Source: a bacterium (GTDB lineage Bacteria > CAIWAD01). Taken from it: a stretch of DNA of 50,020 bases. The notes beneath the pieces are model-generated. The model made no database searches. It saw nothing but the letters and a program-made list of their open reading frames with translations, and had not been told where the DNA came from. Positions 9,618 to 16,143 of this stretch are shown in pieces (the stretch's first letter is position 1; every line of letters starts with the position of its first letter). The position numbers and the translations under genes are program-made. The stretch lies in NCBI GenBank assembly GCA_030685015.1, contig JAUXWS010000036.1:1-50020 (forward strand). The letters run 5' to 3'.

Positions 9618-10821
9618 TGGGCTTGTCCTTCAGCTTGGATTCCAGTCGGGTGATGGTCAATCTCAGGACGCCCCTGCGCCCAGAGTAGTCGGGATCCGCC
9701 TCCACCTGGCGGTACAGGTCCAGGGCATCGCTCTCACGCTTGAGCAGAACCAGGGCTTCGGCACGGAGCAGGATCAGTTCATACTCCCCAGGATTGAGCT
9801 GGGCGTTGGTCGCCATTTGCCGCTCAAACCGCTCCAGGCTGCCATCCTTCGTGCCGTGAAGCGTCAGGTCGCGCCGGGCCTCCAACAACCCGCACTGCCC
9901 TTCACCCAGCCCACATTCGCGGCCCCGCGCCACCAAGGTGTCCAGCAAAGGGGAAAGCAGGGCCTGCCGGGGACGCTTGACCGCAAGGTCCCGGTCCACG
10001 TGACGGCACAGGTCCTGGACCACGCCGGGGATGAGTCGGCGCTGCAGCTCCAGCAAGGCCGCGGAGCCATCCGCGGAGGGACCCGGCGCCTCCTCCCGGC
10101 CCACTTCCAAATGGGCGTTGACGCATTCCAAGGGGAGGTCGATGCCATCCAGGCGCGCACGGAGGCGGTTCATCGCCGTGGCATCGGCGCCGGCGCGTTG
10201 GAGCAAGTCCCGGCCGAGACTGTCCGCCCGATCCTCCAGCGCTGCCTCGTACATGGGCGCGAGGGTGATGCTGAGTTCAGGCCTGCTGGCGTTTCCGGAA
10301 ACAAGTCGCAGGGCTTTGCGCAAGGGATTATCCCGGGCGGGCCGGGCAATCCGCCGATCCATCAGCATTTGATGACAGGGAAAGTGCCCGTCGAGCGGGT
10401 GCTGCATCAGATGGGCCAGGACCGCCTCAAGTTCGCGCATGTCCCGCATCAGGCAGATGGCCGCGGCATGCAGCAGCATGTCGCCGTTGGGCAGTGAGAC
10501 CAGCCACGGGGCATCGCCCGAGGCCAGTTGGATGCGCAGCTCGGGACGAGGATCGGCGCCGCCCTCGGCGAATGGAAGCAGGCGCAGCAAGGTGGCCGAC
10601 AACAGGCTGTCAACCTGGGCGCGACCCCGCAGCCTCTGCTCGTTCACGTACTCCCAGCTTTGACTCCAAGCCTTCTGCGCGTCCGCGCCCAGGTCAAGAT
10701 CCGGATAGTGCGACCTGACCGTCGGTCTGGAACGGGCCAAGCCGGCAACAGACAGCAGGAGCACGCAACCGACACAGGCCAGGCAGCGGACGAGAACCAG
10801 TCGGAGTGGACGGCTCACCAT
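9604..10821 (-). CDS. M48-like metalloprotease homologue with broken HExxH motif
   Basis: A secreted protein of 405 residues with a signal peptide from the ATG at 10821 (LVLVRCLACVGCVLLLSVAGLA). The central part follows the M48/BepA pattern: SLPNGDMLLHAAAICL, then ELEAVLAHLMQHPLDGH, later EDRADSLGRDLLQRAGAD. The motif that should read HExxH reads HLMQH, so the catalytic Glu is Leu; the downstream Glu-x-x-x-Asp zinc-site helix is kept. The C-terminal 100 residues are helical and TPR-like (LILLRAEALVLLKRESDALDLYRQVEAD). It is probably a non-proteolytic chaperone or scaffold. A TTG start at 10878 is possible but would put 19 residues before the signal peptide. Confidence 0.65.
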   Translation of the reverse strand: MVSRPLRLVLVRCLACVGCVLLLSVAGLARSRPTVRSHYPDLDLGADAQKAWSQSWEYVNEQRLRGRAQVDSLLSATLLRLLPFAEGGADPRPELRIQLASGDAPWLVSLPNGDMLLHAAAICLMRDMRELEAVLAHLMQHPLDGHFPCHQMLMDRRIARPARDNPLRKALRLVSGNASRPELSITLAPMYEAALEDRADSLGRDLLQRAGADATAMNRLRARLDGIDLPLECVNAHLEVGREEAPGPSADGSAALLELQRRLIPGVVQDLCRHVDRDLAVKRPRQALLSPLLDTLVARGRECGLGEGQCGLLEARRDLTLHGTKDGSLERFERQMATNAQLNPGEYELILLRAEALVLLKRESDALDLYRQVEADPDYSGRRGVLRLTITRLESKLKDKPNDKN

Positions 10822-13070: not shown

Positions 13071-13094
13071 CGCGCCTTGACCGGTCAGGGCGCG
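13071..13094. terminator. Palindrome between convergent genes
   Basis: CGCGCCTTGACC and GGTCAGGGCGCG form a 24-base near-perfect palindrome (one G-T pair) between the mutase stop and the stop of the minus-strand heme protein, which it overlaps. The position suits a bidirectional terminator, but no T-run is present. Confidence 0.4.
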
Positions 13095-14434
13095 GCGTGC
13101 AGCCTGTGCGGGTCGCCTGTGCCCGGCACCGGGTCGTGGCAGGCGGCGCAGGATTGCCAGGGATCATCCGCCAGACCTTCCCGCAGTTCCCCGCGGGTGT
13201 TGGTGTGCATGCTGGCGCGGCCGTGGCAGGCCTCGCACTGGACGCCCGAGAGATGGGGCGTCTCCTCCTGGCTCAGCCAGCCGCCCTTCTCCAGCCAGCC
13301 CGTCACCAGGCGGCGCCGGGCCAGCGGGTCCTCCGTGCCGTCCTCGCGCGGCGGCAGGGCGAAGGGCCCGGCGTGGGGGCTGGCGCGCCAGGCTTCCCAC
13401 TGCTCCTGGTGGCAAGCGCGGCAGTCCTTCTCGCCCTGATACCAGGCCAGGGCCGCGTTTCCAGGCAATTGGTTGGACGGAATGCCCAGCCGGGCCAGCA
13501 GGACCAGACGCGCCCGCTCGCGCCGGCCGCGCTCCAGGCCCTGTTCGCGCTGGGTGTGCTCCCTGATCTGGTCGGCCACATGCGGATCCTCAATCAGGGA
13601 GTTGTCCACCGGCAGCAGGCTCCAGCTCCGCCGCAGCGCTTGTCCGCGCTTCAACTCCACCTCAAGCAGCCCCAGGTTGCGGCCGCGGTCCCCCACCGAC
13701 ACGACCCACACGCCGCCCATCTCCTGCGGCATGCTTCGCGCCTCGGCTCCCGTCACGAGCAGGACGTCGACCAGCCCGTCCAGCTCCCGCGCCAACACCT
13801 CCGGACCACGGGGATCCAACGCCGCCGCCACGATGAGCAAGTCACAGTGGGGCCGCAGCAGGCGGGCGCGACGCAGCAGGCCGTCATCGACGCGGTCGGC
13901 GGGCAGGCGGTTGGGTCCGTAGCCCGGATCCGCCGTGTCCAGCACGCCCACCGTGATGCCGCCGCGCGTCGCCACCCAGGCCGTGTCCAGCCCCAGGGCG
14001 GGCCGCGCGTTGCGATAAGCGCCGCCCAGCCAGGTGAAGGAGGCGCCGTTCAACATCTCCCGCAGGGCTGGCGCTTTCAGGGCGGCGTCCTGCGGACCAA
14101 GGACCGCCAGGTCGTAGCCGATCCGCCCCATGACGGAGACCAGCTCGCGGGCCGCGCGCAGATGCGGCTCGTCCTCCACGACGTGATGCAGGTTGCCGCC
14201 GTCCATGAGCAGAATCGGCGTGCTTTCCGCCGTGCGCAGCCGCCGCAGCAGGTCGGCGCGGCGGGCCAGCCCGCCCTGGGGCGTGGGTCCGCAGCCGCAG
14301 TCCTCCAGAAAGCCCCGCGTGTCGGCGCTGAGCACGATGCGCAGGCGGCCCTCATTCCCGCGGCAGCCGATCAGCAGAACAAGTCCCATCAGACACAGGG
14401 CGGCGACTCCACGCCAGATGGCCACAGTCCTCAT
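13085..14434 (-). CDS. UshA-like lipoprotein fused to triheme cytochrome c (Cys form)
   Basis: A 449-residue predicted lipoprotein (signal with lipobox LLIGC, lipidated Cys24). Residues about 30-280 follow the 5'-nucleotidase/metallophosphatase fold (SADTRGFLEDCGC, GGLARR, LLMDGGN, then GYDLAVLGPQDA). The usual metal ligands of the DxH, GD and GNHE motifs are replaced, so classical phosphatase activity is unlikely. A Cys46-Gly-Cys48 pair sits where its neighbour has Cys-Gly-Sec. The C-terminal third has three heme c motifs: CRACH (338-342), CEACH (400-404) and CAACH (429-433). The ATG at 14434 has GGGAGG upstream. It is paralogous to the next gene upstream and separated from it by an intrinsic terminator. 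Confidence 0.82.
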   Translation of the reverse strand: MRTVAIWRGVAALCLMGLVLLIGCRGNEGRLRIVLSADTRGFLEDCGCGPTPQGGLARRADLLRRLRTAESTPILLMDGGNLHHVVEDEPHLRAARELVSVMGRIGYDLAVLGPQDAALKAPALREMLNGASFTWLGGAYRNARPALGLDTAWVATRGGITVGVLDTADPGYGPNRLPADRVDDGLLRRARLLRPHCDLLIVAAALDPRGPEVLARELDGLVDVLLVTGAEARSMPQEMGGVWVVSVGDRGRNLGLLEVELKRGQALRRSWSLLPVDNSLIEDPHVADQIREHTQREQGLERGRRERARLVLLARLGIPSNQLPGNAALAWYQGEKDCRACHQEQWEAWRASPHAGPFALPPREDGTEDPLARRRLVTGWLEKGGWLSQEETPHLSGVQCEACHGRASMHTNTRGELREGLADDPWQSCAACHDPVPGTGDPHRLHAAP

Positions 14435-14480: not shown

Positions 14481-14509
14481 AAAAGAAAAGCGGCCCGCAT
14501 GCGGGCCGC
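14481..14509 (-). terminator. Intrinsic terminator of the selenoprotein gene
   Basis: On the minus strand, the perfect palindrome GCGGCCCGCATGCGGGCCGC is followed directly by TTTTCTTTT. It starts about six bases after the selenoprotein stop. This is the clearest Rho-independent terminator in the window. Confidence 0.9.
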
Positions 14510-14515
14510 CGTCCC

Positions 14516-16063
14516 TCAGTCTTTCTTCGGTCCCGCGCCGCCCGGTGGCGGTGGCGGAAACGTGGCGGGCATCGGCTTGACCGCTTCCGCATTGGGCGTC
14601 CCCTTTGGCTTGCCGTCGGGGGTGGTGCCCAGGTTCAGCTTGCCACCCGGGGCCAGGGCGGGAACCGGACTTTGCTTGCTGTCGCCAACCGGTGCCACCA
14701 CCGGTGGGTGCGAGAGTTTCAGGCCGGCCTGGAGGTCGAACTCCGGCTGATGTTGCGGGCCATGACAGCCCAGACAGGTCGTTTCCGGCCTCACCAGCGT
14801 CTCCAGGGCGGCGCCCTTCGTCTTCACGTGCTCGCTGCCCCGACCGTGGCAAGCCTCGCACTGCACATTGTAGAGGTGCGAACTCTCGCGCCGGTCCACG
14901 AAGCCGCCCTCCTCCAGCCAGCCCGTCACCGCGCGCCGCACCTTCTCTTCCTGGTCGCTCTCGCGGTTGCGGATGAGATCGCTGAAAGCGCGTCCGTGCA
15001 CTGTCTGGCGCCAGGAGTTGTACTGCTCCATGTGGCAGTCGCGGCAGTCCTTCTCCCCCGTGTAGGTCAGGCGGCTGCCCGCCCCCGGCATCGTGGCCGG
15101 ATCGATCTTCAGCTCGGCCAGGCGCGCCAGGCGCAGCTTCTCCAGGTTGGCGGCCTTGAGCCGCGTCTGCTCGGCCTGGAAGTCCAGCAGGAGCTGGGCC
15201 ACCTGCGGATCGTTCGGCATCTCGTGGGCCAGGACCACCACCTGGTAGTCGGCATTGACCAGCTGCTTCTCGCGGTTGAAAAGCAGGTCGAAGCGGGCCA
15301 GGTGCCGGCCGCGGTCCCCGCTGTTCCCGATGTGGACCGAGCCTTCCTGCTTGGCGTTCATCCAAGGGGAGTTGACTCCGCCCATGATCATCACGTCCAC
15401 CAGGCCGTTGACCCGGCGGGCCAGGCTGTTGGGATCCTGGTGGCTGGTGAAGGCCACCATGGCCACCACGTCGCAGCGCTTGCGCAGGTCCTGGGCGATG
15501 GCCTCCAGGTTGTCCTGCAGCTCCTCGGTCTTCATGTTGTTGGCCTGCCAGGTGGGATCGATCCACGAGAAGAGGCCGACCTTGATGCCGTCCACCTTCT
15601 TGATCCACACCTCCTGCACGCCCTTGGGCCGCTGGGCGGGGTGGTAGTTGGTCCCGATCCAGGGGAACTCGGCCGCCGCCATCAGGAGATGCCGCGTGCT
15701 GTCCACCAGCGAGAAGTCCTTGGGACCCATCACCGCCACGTCGTACTTCTGGCGGTTCATCATGCGGATGATGAAGCCGGCCTCGGAGGTCGCCTGCTCC
15801 GTCTTCTGGAAACCGTGGATGTTGCCGCCGTCGACCAGCACCATCCGTTGCGCGCCGATCATCGTGCGCAGGCTGTCCACCGCGTATTGACGCCTGGCAA
15901 GACCGCCAAGCTTCTTGTTGTGTCAACCACAGTCCTCGAGGTAGCCCGTGCAATCCGATGTGAAGACCAGGGAGACCTTGTAGCTGTCCCGCGAGGCACA
16001 GCCTCCATTAAGGAATCCCATCAGCAGCAGGAGCACTGCCGCTGCCGGGAAAAGCCGTCGCAT
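14516..16063 (-). CDS. Selenoprotein: UshA-like lipoprotein fused to triheme cytochrome c (UGA = Sec47)
   Basis: Read through the in-frame TGA at 15923-15925, this encodes 515 residues. From the ATG at 16063 (GGAG upstream) come a signal peptide with a likely lipidated Cys22, then TSDCTGYLEDCGU, HNKKLGGLARR and the 5'-nucleotidase-like fold (LVDGGN, YDVAVMGPKDF). Three heme c sites follow: CRDCH (340-344), CEACH (402-406), CLGCH (430-434). A Pro-rich tail of about 70 residues ends the protein. The residue at the TGA aligns with Cys48 of the adjacent paralogue (EDCGC, GGLARR), and homology continues in frame on both sides. A SECIS-like hairpin follows the TGA. Metal ligands of the phosphatase fold are replaced, so I infer a redox enzyme with a Cys-Gly-Sec centre wired to hemes in the envelope. 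A frameshifted pseudogene is unlikely. Confidence 0.88.
15892..15911 (-). promoter_or_regulatory. Bacterial SECIS-like hairpin
   Basis: The stem is GCTTGGC pairing with GCCAGGC (7 bp, one G-U) around loop GGTCTT. It begins 11 bases after the UGA, and the loop begins 18 bases after it. From memory, the E. coli fdhF SECIS also has GGUCU at its apex at the same distance. The loop GGU and the spacing are what SelB recognises in known bacterial elements. Confidence 0.8.
15923..15925 (-). other. In-frame UGA selenocysteine codon
   Basis: TGA at codon 47 of the heme lipoprotein gene, in the context EDCG-U-HNKKLGGLARR. The reading frame stays open for the remaining 468 codons, and the paralogue has TGC (Cys) at this position. 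Confidence 0.85.
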
Positions 16064-16143
16064 GTACACTCCGATCAATGGATACGGTTGAGCGTTTTCA
16101 AGGCGCAATGGTAATGCCTACCCGGCGCACCCGCAACTTATCG

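Follow-up and report, generated by a model that had tools for sequence, protein, structure and literature searches.

A predicted Cys-Gly-Sec selenoprotein joining a metal-ligand-free UshA-like domain to a triheme cytochrome domain

Introduction

On the minus strand of the window, the 50,020-nucleotide stretch of bacterial DNA analysed here, an in-frame TGA divides a gene into a short first part and a long second part. This locus raises the question of whether the TGA is a stop or a selenocysteine (Sec) codon and, in the latter case, what a protein might do that carries Sec together with c-type hemes. A first-pass annotation had proposed a Cys-Gly-Sec lipoprotein in which a 5'-nucleotidase-like domain is fused to three c-type hemes, and had described a ribosome site, a terminator and a 7-bp hairpin with an apical GGUCUU after the TGA. 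It regarded the heme fusion and its function as undescribed, and it named two places where the Sec reading could fail, namely the Sec machinery of the genome (selA, selB, selC and selD) and the codon that homologues carry at the TGA column.

Results

With TGA translated as U, positions 14516-16063 give a single frame of 515 residues that runs from ATG to a terminal TGA, whereas the ORF list made with table 11 splits it into a 61-residue ORF that ends at 15923 and a 454-residue ORF at 14516-15880. The first-pass annotation had reported exactly this split as well as a frame continuous across TGA 15923-15925, and its ribosome site and terminator were also recovered (Table 1). Its lipoprotein assignment is plausible, with Cys22 invariant across four aligned proteins. 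The TGA copy has a weak lipobox, however, and the LIGC of the adjacent paralogue at 13085-14434 is the better one. The neighbours of the gene, a NUDIX hydrolase, a phosphomannomutase and, by eye from the ORF list, relA/spoT- and dnaB-like ORFs, say nothing about its substrate.

Table 1 Features of the locus, in positions of the whole window.
Feature	Position	Strand	Basis
Predicted selenoprotein gene, UshA-like domain + triheme c-type cytochrome domain, 515 residues, Sec47	14516..16063	-	sequence
GGAG ribosome-binding site, 5 nt upstream of ATG	16069..16072	-	sequence
Signal peptide / probable lipoprotein signal, ends at Cys22, weak lipobox LNGGC	15998..16063	-	sequence
UshA / 5'-nucleotidase-type metallophosphatase-fold domain, without metal ligands	15164..15982	-	profile, model, alignment
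Cys45-Gly46-Sec47 motif, loop after beta strand 1 (UshA metal-site loop)	15923..15931	-	alignment, model
In-frame TGA, predicted selenocysteine, residue 47	15923..15925	-	column holds TGA/Cys, no other stop
Putative bacterial SECIS hairpin GCUUGGC-GGUCUU-GCCAGGC, GGUC 18 nt past UGA	15892..15911	-	comparison and folding
Cytochrome c554-like domain, three CXXCH (residues 340, 402, 430)	14744..15064	-	Pfam, alignment
Former heme-2 site, K374-V-R-R-A378 replacing CXXCH	14930..14944	-	alignment
Intrinsic-terminator-like 9-bp stem + T-tract	14489..14510	-	sequence
Tandem paralogue, Cys-Gly-Cys, three CXXCH	13085..14434	-	ORF, profile, alignment

For the codon column, eight family members, Cys and masked-TGA sequences among them, served as the seed of a profile. 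With this profile we searched all six frames of 123 loci, every stop being masked as X, and noted which codon fills the Sec column. Among the distinct sequences, TGA occupied the column in 36, TGC or TGT in 28 and GCA in one, a true UshA-like protein; three further matches that did not cover the column were left out of this count. Neither TAA nor TAG was found there in the masked search of the 123 loci. The TAG or TAA triplets in the frames of three relatives (G128, G130 and G089) lie away from the Sec column, which is Cys in all three. Four relatives, at 70, 69, 49 and 35% protein identity, and dozens of distant homologues have kept the TGA, so chance is excluded. The residues that flank it are conserved on both sides and, as had been noted in the first-pass annotation, align with those of the adjacent paralogue, where the column is Cys.

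The source genome (3.61 Mb, 97% complete) holds all of the selA, selB, selC and selD genes named above: a tRNA-Sec with anticodon TCA (59.3 bits), a SelB over its cut-off, and both SelA and SelD. A second tRNA-Sec match over the Rfam threshold proved to be tRNA-Ser(CGA). In the SelD gene of this genome, too, a TGA stands in frame, in the context SGG-TGA-AAKLGP (L028, G000:C37:12407-13327). SelB was also found in most of the TGA-bearing relatives that were checked (G002, G003, G069, G029 and G139); G001 has a short C-terminal SelB fragment alone and G004 a partial SelB, both genomes being incomplete.

The hairpin lies where it had been claimed to lie, with its start 11 nt after the UGA and its loop at +18, and its spacing is equal to that of E. 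coli fdhF, UGA-CACGGCCCAUCGGUUGCA-GGUC (exact match to the annotated fdhF). Its folding energy is -13.9 kcal/mol (z = -2.76 relative to dinucleotide shuffles, of which 3 in 200 were as good). The 18-nt core is identical across five genomes in which the proteins are 35-70% identical to the window protein, and it is written in codons that are rare in the window genes (CTT 6%, GGT 7%, CTT 6%, AGG 13% and CGT 6% of their families). At identical residues, the first 12 codons showed more synonymous agreement than the remainder in 10 of 10 genome pairs, with p values of 0.02-0.24 per pair and pairs that are not independent of one another. No compensatory changes were seen in the hairpin among the five genomes, and covariation lends it no support because it hardly varies. 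An Rfam search at the hairpin returned no match, and Rfam may hold no fitting model. By its position, loop and predicted fold, the hairpin appears to be a bacterial SECIS element.

Explaining the TGA as a sequencing error, as a pseudogene stop or as an ordinary stop between two genes draws on the two ORFs that table 11 yields, but this has a negligible probability, being already refuted by the TGA/Cys column in distant homologues, by the retention of the TGA in four relatives, the most distant at 35% identity, by conserved residues on either side, and by the structural model, in which beta strand 1 would be cut off from the remaining fold. Just as improbable is a TGA decoded as some other residue under a reassigned code (e.g. 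Trp or Gly), or one passed by nonspecific readthrough: an in-frame TGA taken alone would permit it, but TGA terminates this gene and others, the homologues have Cys rather than Trp or Gly in the column, the genome encodes the complete Sec machinery and its selD contains a TGA as well, and the conserved SECIS-like hairpin is present. Judged from sequence, the gene is almost certainly a genuine selenoprotein gene with Sec incorporated at UGA 15923-15925, and the Cys-Gly-Sec motif of the first-pass annotation is borne out at residues 45-47 by the column, the machinery and the downstream hairpin.

The N-terminal domain was modelled from four sequences with a mean pLDDT of 80.5, and the model matched E. 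coli UshA with an E value of 2e-20 and a TM-score of 0.73 by query length; the Cys-Gly-Sec loop has a pLDDT below 50 in it. In the model of the whole protein the heme domain was poor and of low confidence. Eight of the nine UshA metal and catalytic residues (D41, H43, D84, N116, H117, D120, H217, H252 and Q254) are replaced and D41 alone is kept, so the window protein is not a 5'-nucleotidase; such activity is disfavoured by the loss of ligands. The label "5'-nucleotidase-like" thus holds for the fold and fails for the metal and catalytic residues. The SoxB model TIGR04486 matched with an E value of 2.6e-12, at 45.8 bits against a curated cut-off of 550, and a SoxB thiosulfohydrolase is disfavoured by ligand loss and by this score under the cut-off.

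The fold also bears on the role of the motif, since Cys-Gly-Sec might bind a metal or the substrate, as part of a hydrolase-like or SoxB-like (sulfur-oxyanion) enzyme, instead of forming a redox centre. The UshA/SoxB fold would suit this, as would the many relatives that keep D41, D84, H217 and H252 beside the motif. The window protein, however, has D, N, F and G at these positions, and the fusion to c-type hemes suggests electron transfer, so we consider a ligand role unlikely.

The C-terminal part of the protein matched PF13435 (cytochrome c554) at 48.3 bits against a gathering cut-off of 20.8, and its CXXCH motifs support the three c-type hemes predicted in the first-pass annotation. Among the members examined, heme-bearing relatives outside the window clade have four CXXCH and the window clade has three, the latter count covering the TGA copies of G000-G003 and the Cys copies of G000, G001 and G003, with the G002 Cys copy left out. 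The motif that was lost is the second one, as the alignment places KVRRA, ARRRL or KLPKY where others have DCLQCH. Its counterpart in the alignment is the second CXXCH of cytochrome c554, which we take to be the site of the five-coordinate heme of that protein. No CXXCH occurs in G004 and several other family groups. In G004 (L064, same class), the CGU motif and the identical hairpin core go together with a proline-rich tail in place of the heme domain; since this Sec motif stands without hemes, hemes are not essential to the use of Sec in the clade. Elsewhere in the source genome, L026 (G000:C70 near 18879) carries two polyheme frames, overlapping or adjacent, that contain 20 and 19 CXXCH, as in a cytochrome-rich organism.

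A Cys copy adjoins the TGA copy in G001 (L030) and G002 (L062) as well, and it is strongly diverged in G003 (L063). In a quick tree, the window clade, G004 and the Cys tandem copies formed one group of eight rows with an SH-aLRT value of 99; elsewhere in the tree several rows are long-branched and of uncertain order. The gene neighbourhoods of six relatives, with an HU-like protein, an RNase T-type exonuclease and an unassigned exported protein, gave no functional link, and in the window clade they revealed no enzyme gene as a conserved neighbour. In relatives from the phylum of G029, the UshA-like selenoprotein gene is followed by a gene for an exported protein of about 300 residues (L126:8024-8896 (-), L128:8018-8953 (-) and L124 about 9700-10575 (+)), a possible partner; the two copies tested had no Pfam match. 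Viral contigs contained no relative, plasmids gave distant 5'-nucleotidase matches and nothing closer, and the contig search gave one relative, LaPlata_bin-1558, whose sequence matches G001 C119.

Discussion

On the comparative evidence, SelB and tRNA-Sec(UCA) almost certainly decode UGA 15923-15925 with the aid of the hairpin at 15892-15911. From its signal peptide, the protein would be exported, probably as a lipoprotein, and its CXXCH motifs would bind three c-type hemes covalently. The UshA-fold domain has lost its dinuclear metal site and hydrolytic residues, and the Cys-Gly-Sec pair in the former metal-site loop would probably be the reactive redox centre; the hemes would relay electrons between it and other envelope cytochromes. 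The reaction would most likely be a reduction of the small-molecule or thiol/disulfide type.

An alternative with a small probability is that the protein is mainly an electron carrier, a scaffold or a metal- or heme-handling factor, in which Cys and Sec serve assembly or protection from peroxide and do not catalyse a reaction of a dedicated substrate. The lost metal ligands, the Cys version in tandem and the window clade without a conserved neighbouring enzyme would be in keeping with this role. Against it, the C-x-U/C motif is kept across distant groups, and Sec is costly and usually retained for catalysis.

As a whole, a Sec-decoded, exported, metal-free and heme-wired Cys-Gly-Sec oxidoreductase is the best explanation, and we hold it with considerable confidence. 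Taken separately, the exported heme-wired redox role is probable and the reductive direction is evenly balanced. More tentatively, and with rather more doubt than belief, we suggest a branch whose metallophosphatase fold has lost the metal centre altogether and now serves as a Cys-Gly-Sec oxidoreductase with direct electron transfer from selenol to three c-type hemes, a chemistry that has been assigned to no known enzyme.

This securely identified selenoprotein, which a standard gene call splits, comes from a lineage of which few relatives have been sequenced. The window clade pares the family down to a version without metal ligands and with one heme fewer, and with the adjacent Cys paralogue as a natural control it is well suited to testing direct coupling between Cys-Sec and c-type hemes.

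Comparison with known systems

The NCBIfam model NF041198 (UshA_like_PCGU) matched both halves of the window protein at 185.3 bits against a cut-off of 275, and in a six-frame search many clear TGA relatives likewise did not rise above this cut-off. Its multiheme region (model positions of about 345-519) was matched over 349-517, with three of the usual four CXXCH. In one phylum 74 of 80 genomes match the model, many of them with one TGA and an in-frame C-terminal heme region. At the sequence level, knowledge of the family goes back to 2008, when UshA-like COG0737 selenoproteins with CxU were reported in the GOS survey (PMC2398784); a 2022 review (PMC9312934) and a 2026 review (PMC13188914) list an UshA-like (seleno)protein family. 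The accessible parts of these three sources give no function for the CxU family. Because of NF041198 and the 2008 CxU report, the selenoprotein and its heme fusion were already known as sequence families. The first-pass annotation was right in its selenocysteine call and too strong in its claim of novelty: the fusion had been modelled and the CxU motif reported, and the part that stands is that no function was found in the available text. What sets the window version apart is its three CXXCH and the lack of metal ligands.

Three known proteins or families share parts of this architecture. E. coli UshA has the same fold in its N-terminal domain and its own C-terminal domain where the window protein has the heme domain. 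The first and third CXXCH of cytochrome c554 (PF13435; 1bvb) align with the heme domain, whereas its second CXXCH is without a counterpart. The UshA-like (seleno)protein family 2 (NF049981) shares the fold, but the window protein matched it weakly, at 57.8 bits against a cut-off of 140, and its motif, according to PMC13188914, is CxxU rather than CxU.

Closest is the NF041198 family, which has, like the window protein, an UshA-type fold, C-G-U/C after beta strand 1 and a C-terminal multiheme region in the same place. The two differ in the motif (PCGU in the model name, EDCGU here), in the CXXCH count (four in the relatives, three here) and in the ligands (D-D-H-H commonly, D-N-F-G here). By its UshA fold and C-x-U/C after strand 1, the window protein belongs to the UshA-like CxU (seleno)protein family in the broad sense; with a score below the cut-off and DCGU instead of PCGU, it falls outside the NF041198 equivalog. 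Within this known family it represents a divergent branch, triheme and metal-free.
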